64,000 bases of DNA from an uncultured Fimbriimonas sp. (GTDB taxonomy: Bacteria > Armatimonadota > Fimbriimonadia > Fimbriimonadales > Fimbriimonadaceae), in contig CAMFIS010000002.1 in NCBI GenBank assembly GCA_945952345.1, forward strand, positions 20,718 through 84,717, read 5' to 3'. A program made the translations under genes and the position numbers. The notes beneath the pieces are model-generated. The model made no database searches. It was not told where the DNA came from and saw nothing but the letters and a program-made list of their open reading frames with translations. Every line of letters starts with the position of its first letter. Position 1 is the stretch's first letter. Shown here in pieces: positions 356-64,000 of the stretch.

Positions 356-838
356 TTAGCGCGGAACCCGAGTGCACCACTTGATCTCGTCGACGCCGTT
401 GGTCATCGCGAGTTCGGCCAGCTGACCCATATGGCCAGCCAAGTGCCGAATATTGAGAATCTGGTGGTCGAGCTTGGCAATATTGGGGTACCAGCTAAAG
501 CCCGACTCTGGGGATTCCAGGTCGAGACGGTCGATCCAGTCGCCGATGTTGGCATCGATGAAATCGCAGTATTCGAGAATTTCCTCTTTCGAAAGGTCAG
601 GCGAATCTGGCTTGTCCTCCCAAAGGTCGTGGAACTCGCCTTCACGCCAAGGTTTGAAGTCTTCCTCTCGCTGCATGGCGTACAGGTGCGTGTAGAAGAG
701 CGCATGTCCCGCGATCTTCCAGTTCTTGCGTGGACCCATTCCCTCATTCCAAAGCTGGTCGGGAAAGTCCGTCACGGTTTGGCGCAGCATCGAAAGCCCC
801 GCGCGATATTGTCCTTTTAGTGCTTGTTTAATCTCCAT
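356..838 (-). CDS. DinB family protein
   Basis: 160 aa; DinB-like helical pattern with NIRHLAGHMGQLAEL near the C-terminus. Confidence 0.7.
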   Translation of the reverse strand: MEIKQALKGQYRAGLSMLRQTVTDFPDQLWNEGMGPRKNWKIAGHALFYTHLYAMQREEDFKPWREGEFHDLWEDKPDSPDLSKEEILEYCDFIDANIGDWIDRLDLESPESGFSWYPNIAKLDHQILNIRHLAGHMGQLAELAMTNGVDEIKWCTRVPR

Positions 839-841
839 TAC

Positions 842-1402
842 TTAACCCCTCAGAAAATTCTTTACTCGTCCTAAAATCAGCTCGGCCGTCTCGGCGTTGT
901 ACTCGGGAAACACGGGATCGCTCAGGATATGCCCCGGTCCAGGATATTCGTACAACTCTCCGCCGACCTGCTCGCAAAGCGTCGCCATCGTGCTCATGTC
1001 CGTCCAAGGATCACCGCTCGTTTGGTGAATCTGGAGTCGAACGCCAGCCGGCCATTCGGTTGCGAAGAATCCCCCCTGAACGCATCCGTGCATGAGAATT
1101 GCCCCTTTTGCTCCCGGTCGCAACTCCGCCAGTCGCTGAGCATAGACTGCTCCCATCGAAAAGCCAAGAAAGTAGGCGTCTGCGGGAACGTCGGCGACGG
1201 CTTTCTCGGATTCGGCGATCATGCCCTCCCAGCCCATCACATCTTCCTCGTACTTACAACCTTCTTCCAAAGACTCGAAGTGTTTGCCTTTGAAAAGGTC
1301 GGGGCACCAAACATTGTGGCCGTCCGCCCGCAACGATTCGGCGAACTGCAGAACCCCCTCGGTCAGCCCCAGCACGTGGTGAAAAACAACAACATTTGCC
1401 AT
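842..1402 (-). CDS. Dienelactone hydrolase-family alpha/beta hydrolase
   Basis: MANVVVFHHVLGLTEGV..., GFSMGA motif; start moved to the internal Met of ORF 842..1441. Confidence 0.8.
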   Translation of the reverse strand: MANVVVFHHVLGLTEGVLQFAESLRADGHNVWCPDLFKGKHFESLEEGCKYEEDVMGWEGMIAESEKAVADVPADAYFLGFSMGAVYAQRLAELRPGAKGAILMHGCVQGGFFATEWPAGVRLQIHQTSGDPWTDMSTMATLCEQVGGELYEYPGPGHILSDPVFPEYNAETAELILGRVKNFLRG

Positions 1403-1472
1403 CGCATAAGTATCGTAACACGCGATGGCAGAGATAGACAAGAGTCTACTGAAAGTCTTGGCGAAATTCCTT

Positions 1473-2375
1473 TTAGTTTCGGGACCATCGGGCGTCGAAT
1501 GCAGGATGAGCTTGATCCGAGGTTACGTGGGCTTCGGTTCCTCCTCCGGCTGAAACTCGAAAGATCTGGAGCGTAAATCCGTCGACGGACCTAACACTGT
1601 GGAACGCGATTTGGCTACCATCGGGCGACCAGGTTGGGTTATTGTCATTGGTGCCGGTCGAAACTGGAGTCTTGTTCGTCCCGTCGGCGTTCATAACCGT
1701 GATCACGCCGGCGTTGCTGAACGCAATCTTAGTTCCATCTGGAGACCAAGATGGCGACGTCCCGCCGGTTGCAGAAATCGAAACTTGATTGGTGCCGTCC
1801 GCATTTGCTACGACAATGGTTCCACTGCCACCCAGCGGACTTTGCATGAACGCAAGCTTCGTTCCGTCGGGGCTCACGGTCGGAGAGAAATTGTGGGGCA
1901 GCCCTCCATTCGAGGGTGTGGTGATCTGAGTGACCACTCCGCCCGGAATGGTGATCGAACAAATCTGTGAACTTCCCGCTCCATCGGTATCGCGGATGAA
2001 ATAGATCTTGCTTCCGTCCGGTGAAAATGTTGGACTGCCATCCTTAAACGAGCCGTTCGTGATTTGAGTCGCGCCAGAACCATCGATCGAAGCGACAAAG
2101 ATTTGATCCTTTCCACCGACTTTCCTCACGAAAGCCATCGAGGTTCGGTCTTGGGAAATTGCCGGAGCGTCACTTTCGGCGGAAATGACTCCCACCCGCG
2201 CAACTCCATCGCTGCCGATGATGTCGATGGAATCATTCGATGCTCCGACCGTGGCGATCAGCATTTTGTCATTGCCAAGAGGGGTTGGCGCGGTGTTGGC
2301 GGAACTGCCGCCACATCCAGTCACGAGAAGGGCAGAGGCGGCAACGAAGGCGGGAATTGCAAAGCGAAGTCTCAT
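1473..2375 (-). CDS. TolB-like beta-propeller lipoprotein
   Basis: Lipobox LLVTGCGG and repeated SPDGxKIxF motifs; start chosen at MRLRFAIPAF. Confidence 0.85.
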   Translation of the reverse strand: MRLRFAIPAFVAASALLVTGCGGSSANTAPTPLGNDKMLIATVGASNDSIDIIGSDGVARVGVISAESDAPAISQDRTSMAFVRKVGGKDQIFVASIDGSGATQITNGSFKDGSPTFSPDGSKIYFIRDTDGAGSSQICSITIPGGVVTQITTPSNGGLPHNFSPTVSPDGTKLAFMQSPLGGSGTIVVANADGTNQVSISATGGTSPSWSPDGTKIAFSNAGVITVMNADGTNKTPVSTGTNDNNPTWSPDGSQIAFHSVRSVDGFTLQIFRVSAGGGTEAHVTSDQAHPAFDARWSRN

Positions 2376-2454
2376 GGCAGTTCTGACTCCGTTATACAAA
2401 CCGAGGCGTGACAAGCCGTGACAACCGATCACTTCGAAGCTGAATGGGAGAAGT

Positions 2455-2850
2455 TCACTCGACGCCCGTCAGCGGCAACAATCCCTTGTTCTTGATAATG
2501 TTCTTGTAATCCCATTGCATGTCTCGGCCATTGGCGAGCCACGACCGAATCTCGTTGGCATCAATGTCGGAGAGCGTCCGGTAGATTTTGCAGGCGGCTT
2601 TAAACGTCCCGGTATTTTCAAGACCGGGCTCAGAGAACGATTGCCCGCTCCAAAACATCAGCCGGACGCCTGCTTTGAGACCGTGGTAGCCCACGATCGG
2701 ATTTCCATCGATGAACCAAACTGGCGCCCCGTGCCAGAGCTTGCACTCGTTTTCGCCGTAATCGGCTTCGATAATCTCGTACAACCGGTCGCAAATTAGC
2801 CGGCGATCAGGTTCCTTCCCCTCATGGTATTCCCTGATTTCTTTCCTCAT
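2455..2850 (-). CDS. DUF1801 (YdhG-like) domain protein
   Basis: 131 aa; LWHGAPVWFIDGNPIVGYHGLKAGVRLMFWSGQSF resembles DUF1801. Confidence 0.7.
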   Translation of the reverse strand: MRKEIREYHEGKEPDRRLICDRLYEIIEADYGENECKLWHGAPVWFIDGNPIVGYHGLKAGVRLMFWSGQSFSEPGLENTGTFKAACKIYRTLSDIDANEIRSWLANGRDMQWDYKNIIKNKGLLPLTGVE

Positions 2851-2941
2851 GGAAACTAATACGGGTAGTTGACAACCGAAGCAGCGAGTTTCTTAACTCC
2901 AATTGCCGTTGCGGCATGAGGAATCTGACGATGCGTTCGTT

Positions 2942-3053
2942 AGAATTGATCGGTCAGGAACAGCTGAGGGATGCCCGGGAATTTGTGCCCCATCAGGTAC
3001 ATCGGCACCGAGATCGTGCCGAGCGGAATCTCGAACTGGTCGGTCATCGACGC
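2942..3053. repeat. 112-bp direct repeat, copy A (duplicated 3' end of the GNAT gene)
   Basis: Aligned by eye to 5230-5341: 110/112 identical, same orientation. Confidence 0.95.
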
Positions 3054-3120
3054 TCCGGTATGTCTCCCTGCCAATGAACCAGCGGTAAGCGTAATGCATT
3101 GAAAATGAACACATCTTCCA

Positions 3121-5124
3121 CTATGGCAGGCCGCCCCTTGGATATCGCTTTTTGAACAAGTCTGGAACCTCAAGGTCAAAGGGATTCTTTGATTTTCCGC
3201 CTCCAGGTTCACCGTGGCCCAAGTTTCCGGACTTGCCCTGCACGACGTGGAGGGAAACTGGATAGTAAGATTCCTTAAGGACCCATACTCCCGAGCCGGT
3301 GGCCGTTGTGTCCGCCAAAACGGCCACCGCGGATACCGGATATGTGCCGACGGGAGCATAAAAGGTCGCCGAACCTCCGAAGGGCATGGTGTGCGTACTT
3401 CCGTTCATCGAAAAGGTCAGTTCGCCTGGGCAACCATTGGAAATAGTAACCTTCGCCATTCCTTCTCGACCGCTCGAACCTTGAGCTTCCGGTGATCCAA
3501 GGTGGAAGTCCGCACTTGGGACTTCTACAGGCGCTTTGCGAGATTCGATTTCTGCGAGGCGGGATTTGCTGAGCTTTGCCTCAGCTGAATCTGGCCATCG
3601 CTCCTCGACTTTCTGAAAATAATCCTTGGCGCTTTCGTCGTTCCCTGCGTTGAACTGCGACTCACCTGCCCTGAAATTTGCCCTCTTTGCTTGCCTTGAC
3701 AAACTGGGATCCTCGAAGGCGATCTTATTTTCTCCGAAGGCATCGTTAAAGGAGTCTGCGCTGTCAGTCCAGCGACCCTCATTGGCAGCGGTCCTTGCCT
3801 TCGTTAGTTTTTCACCAACCTGCTCCTTAGCATATTTAATGGGCGTGAAGACTTTTCGAGCAAACTGACGAATCGAGTTCTTGGCAGCTTCAAGGTCAAT
3901 TCGAGAAGCAAACTCGTCAATTAGATTTCCTAGATAGGTCTTACCAACTTCTGGCAGGTCGTGTCCAAAGGCTGATGTGAAGAGATCGGAAAACGTCGAT
4001 TTGCACCCTTCTTCAAGCTCAGTTACTTCTTTTTCGACCGACAGAGTCGCCTCATGAAGCGATTCAATTTTTACCTCCGCTTGACGAATGTCTTGCGGAG
4101 CCTTTGGTCCTTCGGGCCGCCCGAATAGGCCCTGCATTCCAGGCTGCTCAGGGGCCTCGGTGGGCGCCTTCGCAGATATATCGAAGCTGACGTCGTTCAG
4201 GTACGAGGAAGTGGCTTTGGCAACAGGATCGGTCCGAACTGAGGGAATTCTATGGACAACGTAACCCAAATCTAATCGCGAAGGCGATTCAGAAGCAGAG
4301 GCACCCTTGATGACCTCTCTAACTTCTCCGATCACTTCTTTGCGGTGCTCAGCCTCCCCTTTTCGCCGAACTTCTAAACTATATTGGGAGACGAGATTAT
4401 CAACTTTTTCTTTCGTCTTCTCGTCGAGAATGCCCTGGGCAAATGCGGTAAAGCTCGTCAGTCCGACGAGGAAGAGCCAAATTCCTGTTGTTAGCCTTTT
4501 AAAGATGTTAAATCTCTTCACGGGCTTCAGCCTCGGGAAGAATGAGCCTATCAACGTTAGGGCAAGCAGCACGATCGGGATTTTGTACCAAGGCTCCGGA
4601 TCGACGAGCGACTCCTTGAGTAGCAGTCTGTACTTGACCATCGCTGAATCGACCGCGAGTGTCCATTCTGGTGGCGACGTTGATCCGTCTCCAACGGACC
4701 AGGCCACGAGTTTGTTCAGCGCCAGAAACGAACCCAAGCCTAATAGACAGGGTCCTACTACGGAGAATAGAGCCATGAGTGCAGGACCCTTACTATTCCT
4801 GGTGCAGTACCAGGTCGTGAAGAGTCCAGTAAACCAAATCGTCGGAAGCAAAGTTACAAAGCCATCGGCTGTACGAACCTGAACAATAAGAGCGAACAAG
4901 ATCAATAATGCCCACTGGAATGGCTTCCAGGGCTGTTTGTCGACTGATATCTCTTCGATTTGAGAGGATTCAGGCCGGGGGCTGGCGGCCCGATGATTTC
5001 CCTCTGATTTCGAAGGGACCTCAGTGACCGCGCCACAAGAACATCTGACGCCCTTGCCTATGAACTCAGATGAAGAATGCAATTCTGAATTGCATGTCGG
5101 ACACTTAAAATCAATTCGCGCCAT
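3121..5124 (-). CDS. Hypothetical multidomain membrane protein with N-terminal zinc ribbon
   Basis: 667 aa; CPTCNSEL...VRCSCG zinc-ribbon-like start, several hydrophobic helices, charged helical middle with TPR-like segment, beta-rich Gly-rich C-terminus. Confidence 0.8.
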   Translation of the reverse strand: MARIDFKCPTCNSELHSSSEFIGKGVRCSCGAVTEVPSKSEGNHRAASPRPESSQIEEISVDKQPWKPFQWALLILFALIVQVRTADGFVTLLPTIWFTGLFTTWYCTRNSKGPALMALFSVVGPCLLGLGSFLALNKLVAWSVGDGSTSPPEWTLAVDSAMVKYRLLLKESLVDPEPWYKIPIVLLALTLIGSFFPRLKPVKRFNIFKRLTTGIWLFLVGLTSFTAFAQGILDEKTKEKVDNLVSQYSLEVRRKGEAEHRKEVIGEVREVIKGASASESPSRLDLGYVVHRIPSVRTDPVAKATSSYLNDVSFDISAKAPTEAPEQPGMQGLFGRPEGPKAPQDIRQAEVKIESLHEATLSVEKEVTELEEGCKSTFSDLFTSAFGHDLPEVGKTYLGNLIDEFASRIDLEAAKNSIRQFARKVFTPIKYAKEQVGEKLTKARTAANEGRWTDSADSFNDAFGENKIAFEDPSLSRQAKRANFRAGESQFNAGNDESAKDYFQKVEERWPDSAEAKLSKSRLAEIESRKAPVEVPSADFHLGSPEAQGSSGREGMAKVTISNGCPGELTFSMNGSTHTMPFGGSATFYAPVGTYPVSAVAVLADTTATGSGVWVLKESYYPVSLHVVQGKSGNLGHGEPGGGKSKNPFDLEVPDLFKKRYPRGGLP

Positions 5125-5227
5125 CTAGTCAACTCAATCAAGAAAACGAGAACTAGCTGACATTCCTCACAAATCTTATCTAACTACTGAAAGAGTTTCG
5201 GTTGCCTGGCTGGGCCATGCGCCGTGA

Positions 5228-6001
5228 TCAGAACTGATCGGTCAGGAACAGCTGAGGGATCCCCGGGAATTTGTGCCCCATCAGGTACATCGGCACCGAG
5301 ATCGTGCCGAGCGGAATCTCGAACTGGTCGGTCATCGACGCAAGTCCAAACCACTCGGTCGCGAGGGGCACCGGAAGTTTCTTGTCTCGCGCCAATGTGA
5401 TGATCTCGCGCATTTGTCCATTCTCCAGACAGAAATACCCGTCTTTATAGCCGCGAGATTCGCGGAATTGCCACGACCAATACTTCCATCTCGTCCCGTC
5501 GCGCCGCAGCCGGTCTGGGTGGTCTTGGCTCCATGAGTCGTAGTAGCCTCGAACTTCATCGAATGAGAGTTGCGGTAGATCGATCTCTAAGGGCAGGGCA
5601 GTGATGGGCCCGCGAACCACGCGGTCGATGCCTTCGAATCCAAGCGAGTCGTACAGGCGAGTATCGGCAGCGAACAACAGCGATGGGCCTTCACCACGCT
5701 TCTCCGATTCAACCAAAACCTTCTCGATCAGTTTTCGGGCGTGTCCCTCGCGTTGCCGGTTTGGCTGGGTCGCGACACCGGCGATGCCCACAGCTTTGCC
5801 CCAGCCAAAGAGCAAGGGAGTCGTGGTCAAGACGCTCACCATCTCGCCCGCCTCGAACAGCGCCCATTTGCGGTCGAGATCGAAGAGCGGCTCTTGCTGG
5901 AAAAGAGGTTGGGCGCGTTGAAAGTCGAGTTGGAACACGTCGCAGATGATGCTTAGGAAAGCATCGCACTCATGCGCTCGAATGGTTCGAATCTCAGCCA
6001 T
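5228..6001 (-). CDS. GNAT family N-acetyltransferase (Eis-like)
   Basis: GIAGVATQPNRQREGHARKLIEKVL acetyl-CoA binding motif. Confidence 0.85.
   Translation of the reverse strand: MAEIRTIRAHECDAFLSIICDVFQLDFQRAQPLFQQEPLFDLDRKWALFEAGEMVSVLTTTPLLFGWGKAVGIAGVATQPNRQREGHARKLIEKVLVESEKRGEGPSLLFAADTRLYDSLGFEGIDRVVRGPITALPLEIDLPQLSFDEVRGYYDSWSQDHPDRLRRDGTRWKYWSWQFRESRGYKDGYFCLENGQMREIITLARDKKLPVPLATEWFGLASMTDQFEIPLGTISVPMYLMGHKFPGIPQLFLTDQF
5230..5341. repeat. 112-bp direct repeat, copy B (3' end of intact GNAT gene)
   Basis: Partner of 2942-3053. Confidence 0.95.
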
Positions 6002-9705: not shown

Positions 9706-9815
9706 GTGGCACTGGCTCCGACCTCTGGCTTGAACGAAGTGAGCCAGGGAGAAGCCAGTGTTTTCTTGCAGTGGCACTGGTGCGCAGAGCGAGGAACGAG
9801 CGGCGCTTACCAGTG
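9706..9815 (+). repeat. GTGGCACTGG hairpin repeat, two monomers
   Basis: 9706-9760 (55 nt, CACTGGCT...AGCCAGTG) and 9771-9815 (45 nt, CACTGGT...ACCAGTG). Confidence 0.85.
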
Positions 9816-9828
9816 TTCTTTTCTTGCT

Positions 9829-9894
9829 GTCGCGCAGGTCGCTCCCTGCCTGTGCTCGTGCCTCGCTACGGCGGACGAGTCGCTCCTCGGACTT
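9829..9894 (+). repeat. Interspersed repeat, copy 1
   Basis: GTCGCGCAGGTCGCTCCCTGCC...CCTCGCTACGGCGGACG(A/G)GTCGCTCCTCGGACTT, shared with 10949-11030. Confidence 0.9.
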
Positions 9895-9978
9895 GGGCAA
9901 TGATGGCTTGCATCCTACGCACGTTTACAAAGTAGTTCCCAAGGAACCGAAGGATCTCGAGTACGGTTTGCAGATTCA

Positions 9979-10824: not shown

Positions 10825-10948
10825 GTTCAGCGAGAATCAATGGGCCGTTCAAGCTCGCCTCATTTGTTGGCCGTCTTCGAGGCAACGAAGCTCCCGAGGA
10901 AGATCGTGCCCAAGGGACTTGAGCGATTTTCAGTTTTCTTTACTCGCG

Positions 10949-11030
10949 GTCGCGCAGGTCGCTCCCTGCCTCCCTTGGCTGCTTCGCAGCTCCATACCTC
11001 GCTACGGCGGACGGGTCGCTCCTCGGACTT
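10949..11030 (+). repeat. Interspersed repeat, copy 2
   Basis: Matches 9829-9894 with a short insertion. Confidence 0.9.
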
Positions 11031-11198
11031 TTGCGATTACGGAATATTCCTAGGCCTTCGTGTCCTTCTCGCTTTGGCTCGAAGAACACAGCGACCTAGG
11101 CTAATGGTATGCCGCACCTTCGGCGCTGGTCTGCGGTATTTGGAATCTAGCTGGTGAACCGGTTAGTCTCACTCTTCCTGAATCCTGAATACTGAGGC

Positions 11199-63720: not shown

Positions 63721-63949
63721 GTGGATCAGGGGAGATTCGAGGAACTGGTGAACGAGCACAAGGACGCCGTTTACCGACAGATGGTCCGCGTTTGCAACCA
63801 CCGCGAAGATGCCGAAGACGCCCTTGCAACCGCTTTGATGCACGCCTTTCGAGCCTACAAAAACCTCGATTCCGAAACCTCATTCCGAGCCTGGCTAGGA
63901 ACCATCGGCAAACGGGTTTGCTCCCGAATGCGCAACCACGCAGGCATCC
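63721..63949 (+). CDS. ECF sigma-70 family factor, truncated by adapter
   Basis: GTG start: VDQGRFEELVNEHKDAVYRQMVRVCNHREDAEDALATALMHAFRAYKNLDSETSFRAWLGTIGKRVCSRMRNHAGIP, then adapter. Confidence 0.88.
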
Positions 63950-64000
63950 CTGTCTCTTATACACATCTCCGAGCCCACGAGACCGAGGCTGATCTCGTAT
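63950..64000 (+). other. Illumina Nextera read-through adapter + i7 index + P7 start (sequencing artefact)
   Basis: CTGTCTCTTATACACATCTCCGAGCCCACGAGAC + CGAGGCTG + ATCTCGTAT. Confidence 0.99.

Follow-up and report, generated by a model that had tools for sequence, protein, structure and literature searches.

The DNA analyzed here, a 64-kb window on contig C2 of genome G000 (3.96 Mb, 304 contigs, 92% complete), carries an acetyltransferase gene of the GNAT family whose 3' end is present twice (Table 1). The nearest named matches to this genome are mostly assemblies of Fimbriimonadaceae/Fimbriimonadales, and the bacterium is accordingly described as Fimbriimonadaceae-like. The two copies bound a short unit with one orphan gene, orf667, and past the distal copy the window continues with genes that set it apart from a relative, G002.

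Table 1. Features at the GNAT locus (window positions)
Feature	Position	Strand	Evidence or remark
DinB-like gene	356..838	-	Counterpart directly after GNAT in G002, 72% identity (L037)
DUF1801, PD40 beta-propeller and DLH hydrolase genes; G002 lacks them between GNAT and DinB	842..2850	-	Further lineage-specific content
21-bp terminal repeat inside distal copy, TTCCTGACCGATCAATTCTAA; 2 mismatches to main copy	2940..2960	-	
112-bp repeat, distal remnant copy (attR-side); starts at novel joint 3053/3054, ends at stop codon	2942..3053	-	
Unit between the repeats, GC 51%	3054..5227	.	Unit plus one repeat, 2288 bp
Orphan cargo gene orf667, 667 aa	3121..5124	-	ORF list
Last 21 bp of GNAT, TTCCTGACCGATCAGTTCTGA; recurs as terminal repeat in relatives	5228..5248	-	
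112-bp repeat, gene-proximal copy (attL-side), in frame in GNAT	5230..5341	-	Repeat search and alignment
GNAT acetyltransferase, 257 aa, Acetyltransf_9, intact; 3' end is the proposed attB	5228..6001	-	Pfam 2.7e-15

A repeat search of the whole window returned the two copies as one family (98% identity), in the same orientation and at a spacing of 2288 bp. They are identical at 110 of 112 positions, which confirms the duplication of the acetyltransferase 3' end claimed in the earlier note. The identity falls into runs of 26 bp (2947-2972) and 80 bp (2974-3053), the latter of which extends to the joint at 3053/3054 and exceeds every other exact repeat in the window by a wide margin. Read along the gene strand, the repeat starts within the coding part of GNAT and extends up to the stop codon. 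When the stop codons (2940-2942 and 5228-5230) are counted, it measures about 114 bp with three differences. The claim that both copies keep frame and stop is borne out: the stops are TGA and TAA, and the two coding differences are both synonymous (Gly GGG/GGC and Gln CAG/CAA). Among relatives the usual states are GGC, as in the distal copy, and CAG, as in the main copy, so that each copy carries one derived change. No third copy was found in the G000 genome. Elsewhere in the window, positions 9803-9906 and 10923-11042 hold two imperfect intergenic repeats (86 to 87%); similar sequences occur at other places in the genome, and together they may form a dispersed family of intergenic repeats.

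The genome is a short-read assembly, since Nextera adapter sequence stands at contig ends and one exact 55-bp end overlap was seen among the sampled contigs. Adapter was left at window positions 63949-64000, at the starts of C194, C199, C205, and C215, and at the end of C226. Positions 1-112 of C84 (L073) and 1-112 of C201 (L056) overlap at 96%, which suggests strain variants; the match in length to the repeat is probably a coincidence. A fragmented metagenome assembly with these traits might have joined a strain in which GNAT is followed by orf667 and one in which it is followed by DUF1801 into a single contig. We regard such a chimera as a minor and improbable rival, because the joint contains neither Ns nor adapter, the same layout occurs in a relative assembled in four contigs (G006), and the sole exact contig-end overlap suggests a k of about 55, not 80. 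Nor does the 55-bp overlap seen support the idea that the 80-bp exact run stems from a k-mer overlap produced by the assembler.

Between the repeats, orf667 is the sole content. No integrase, recombinase, or mobility family was found in the unit, and a search for an integrase remnant gave nothing convincing (best E value, 0.1). This agrees with the earlier description of a single gene of no recognized family and no visible integrase. The family matches of orf667 were limited to weak TPR hits (Pfam TPR_6, 2e-5, below cut-off), with no match in PHROGs or PADLOC; a defense function was rejected on the PADLOC result. Homologues at other sites, for which the earlier note had proposed looking, did not emerge from the contigs of its own genome, 291 genomes of the phylum, viral contigs, or plasmids beyond weak matches to the TPR region. 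The sequence reads as an N-terminal Cys-rich zinc-ribbon-like motif, hydrophobic predicted helices, a TPR-like region (about residues 440 to 530), and a beta-rich C-terminal region; on this reading, the product is probably a membrane protein. Single-sequence fold prediction was confident only at about residues 478 to 530 (mean pLDDT, 46). The higher AT content that had been noted for the unit is real but modest: the GC of 51.5% and GC3 of 53% of its gene fall at the 3rd and 5th percentiles of the ORFs of at least 300 aa in the same genome (means, 55.9% and 64.2%).

The acetyltransferase gene itself is conserved. Its orthologues in relatives are full length (257 aa) with YbbR, DAC, and PheA upstream, and in the 12 relatives compared PheA and DAC (with YbbR in most) are kept beside GNAT, while the DNA past the GNAT stop varies. 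In G002, the DinB gene starts 114 bp past the GNAT stop. Since DinB directly follows GNAT there, the DLH, PD40, DUF1801, and orf667 genes are all either extra in the lineage of the window or lost in G002. A DUF1801 gene match was absent from the five genomes of the same genus that were searched. The comparison with relatives for an empty site, as envisaged in the earlier note, yielded the GNAT-DinB arrangement of G002 but no exact empty site, that is, no relative in which the right flank of the window (DUF1801) is joined directly to GNAT.

What does occur past the GNAT stop in relatives is informative. In four of them (G005, G012, G019, and G020) a tyrosine integrase gene begins 31 to 61 bp past the stop on the same strand (PF00589 matches of 2e-14 in G005 and 4e-18 in G019), and all four elements share a left arm with TTCAAA just past the stop. 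For G012 and G020 the analysis covered the GNAT-proximal part of the element. Copies of the last 21 bp of GNAT lie in the same orientation at +6481 and +8001 in G005 and at +5389 and +7261 in G019, where the +7261 copy has 4 mismatches. Together with the gene end itself, these copies bracket, in each genome, an element with an integrase and a smaller unit without one. By reading, the 1.5-kb unit of G005 (L042, +6481 to +8001) contains one 401-aa Fic-domain-like ORF, and that of G019 (L045, +5389 to +7261) contains two ORFs, one of 163 aa similar to a fragment of an Rhs-repeat core and the other of 205 aa. Past the last copy, the DNA of G005 and that of G019 are homologous and run into one and the same gene, which is what a native flank should show. 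By eye, the stretch of roughly 130 bp that precedes +6481 in G005 resembles the one that precedes +7261 in G019, which indicates that the right end of an element persists in the integrase-less unit of G019. These arrangements are evidence for accretion and loss at the GNAT 3' end. G006 shows GNAT, one orphan gene, and then a 39-bp copy of the GNAT end at +1209 in the same orientation, without an integrase.

When the terminal 21-mers of GNAT from 60 relatives were searched, four copies were found at ≤1 mismatch, all downstream and in the same orientation, whereas 716 internal 21-mers of the same genes gave no copies at ≤2 mismatches. The GNAT 3' end is therefore strongly supported as a site of recurrent integration. 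The recurrence also weighs against an old tandem duplication of the GNAT 3' end together with orf667, followed by loss of the second orf667 copy. The direct orientation and adjacency of the copies would fit such an event, but the deletion would have had to begin at precisely the stop codon, no relative has orf667, and the recurrence at this gene end in relatives would stay unexplained; we consider it very unlikely.

The integrases found after GNAT have close relatives with another target. Sister integrases lie directly after tRNA-Sec genes in G028 (L152, 9168-10449) and G032 (L153, 2171-3452), and the left arm of these elements is like that of the elements at the GNAT end. The integrase tree groups the sequences found after GNAT into two well-supported pairs and those found after tRNA-Sec genes into a third, with an unsettled branching order among them. 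More distant relatives adjoin other tRNA genes, such as those for tRNA-Arg, -Thr, and -Ser. One of these, after a tRNA-Arg gene in G173 (L166), has two in-frame stops and has probably decayed.

Against this background, the window unit is probably an integrase-less unit at the GNAT 3' end resembling a cis-mobilizable element (CIME). The GNAT 3' end serves as attB for tyrosine-integrase elements of the family, and in such a scheme integration would join element and host DNA within the gene end, leaving reading frame and stop intact, while a second copy of the gene end would stay behind on the far side (2940-3053), so that one cargo gene would come to lie between attL-like and attR-like copies. 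An integrase would thus have made the insertion, and its present absence might mean either that the unit lost it or that an integrase located elsewhere brought the unit in or left it behind. Consistent with a CIME, the unit is bounded by copies of the target end, as the 112-bp copies hold the 21-bp terminal repeat of the relatives, at the far end in the same orientation, and it has no integration or transfer genes. Its closest likeness is the G006 unit, with its single orphan gene, gene-end copy, and lack of an integrase. The original proposal of integration at the 3' end of the gene, restoring the terminus and leaving a remnant copy behind, is thus well supported for the site, where the integrase elements of relatives and the G006 unit are bounded by copies of the same gene end. 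For the window unit itself the proposal is unproven: past the GNAT stop the window reads TCACGGCGCATG, without the TTCAAA left arm of the four integrase elements, its repeat is 112 bp as against 21 bp in those elements, and no exact empty site with its right flank was found among the relatives. The tyrosine integrase next to attL that marks an autonomous island is absent from the window unit and present in G005, G012, G019, and G020. Nor does G000, at 92% completeness, contain a cognate integrase, its recombinases being two XerC/XerD-like proteins and one degenerate integrase-like fragment. Insertion by the Xer proteins was considered but not adopted as an explanation.

These features also bear on the main rival, a RecA-type event that was not site specific, in which DNA of a near-identical strain carrying the GNAT 3' end and orf667 was inserted. 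A circular or concatenated donor would need one crossover within the 112 bp (Campbell insertion), and a linear donor would enter by homology-facilitated illegitimate recombination, a described process (PMC3240628). Homology would stop at the stop codon since donor and recipient differ downstream, and 3053/3054 would be an arbitrary illegitimate join. Such an origin would suit the appearance of both copies as functional alleles, with two synonymous differences and one derived change in each, the position of one repeat end at the stop and the other at an arbitrary point inside the gene, and the missing left arm and integrase. It does not account, however, for the terminal repeats that mark this gene end in G005, G006, and G019 or for the integrase next to it in G005 and G019, and at 39 bp the G006 repeat is short for recombination by RecA. 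On this evidence we hold the RecA-type route to be rather unlikely. Still less probable, in our estimation, is that the GNAT end is the dock of a cassette-like system, in which an integrase acting in trans captures and exchanges small units that each regenerate the gene end. The recombinase-less one- or two-gene units of 1.2 to 2.3 kb (those of the window and G006 and the second units of G005 and G019) would be its cassettes; if true, this would amount to a lineage-specific cargo array without an integron.

For the CIME-like reading, several known systems offer comparison. In E. coli, prophage e14 provides a protein-coding gene, icd, with a new end while the displaced one stays on as a remnant, much as proposed here, but it brings its own integrase and phage genes. 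PAISt of Streptomyces turgidiscabies and related islands in S. scabies and S. acidiscabies also use a protein-coding target, the 3' end of bacA, with attR lying within a 138- to 141-bp duplicated gene end, an internal third copy, and modules without a working integrase (PMC4057263). In PAISt, a short crossover site, mapped to the 8-bp TTCATGAA, lies within a gene-end duplication as long as 141 bp, a published precedent for the long repeat seen here. Those islands are 105 to 674 kb long with a tested integrase (PMC4057263), whereas the window unit is about 2.3 kb with one gene and no integrase. CIMEs and their accretion (PMC5704250) offer two parallels, namely an att-bounded unit without integration genes and, as in G005 and G019, the stacking of such units next to integrase elements that share one target. 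Known CIMEs, however, derive from decayed ICEs or IMEs, while the window unit has no recognizable parent or residual integrase; no shared arm or integrase remnant linking it to an ICE, IME, or similar parent was seen, and its counterparts in G005 and G019 adjoin integrase elements. The ssrA islands of Dehalococcoides, 15 of which have no integration module, are likewise variable regions bounded by copies of a gene's 3' end (PMC3146451), but involve a tmRNA target, a 20-bp repeat, and a serine recombinase instead of a protein-coding gene and a tyrosine integrase.

In summary, a protein-coding gene end is identified as a recurrent integration site in Fimbriimonadaceae; a search of one paper library for this family in combination with integrases gave no match. 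Closely related integrases use either a selenocysteine tRNA gene or an acetyltransferase gene end, which makes them a clear case for studies of target change. Furthermore, the locus suggests how orphan genes can enter genomes, namely, as tiny att-bounded units.
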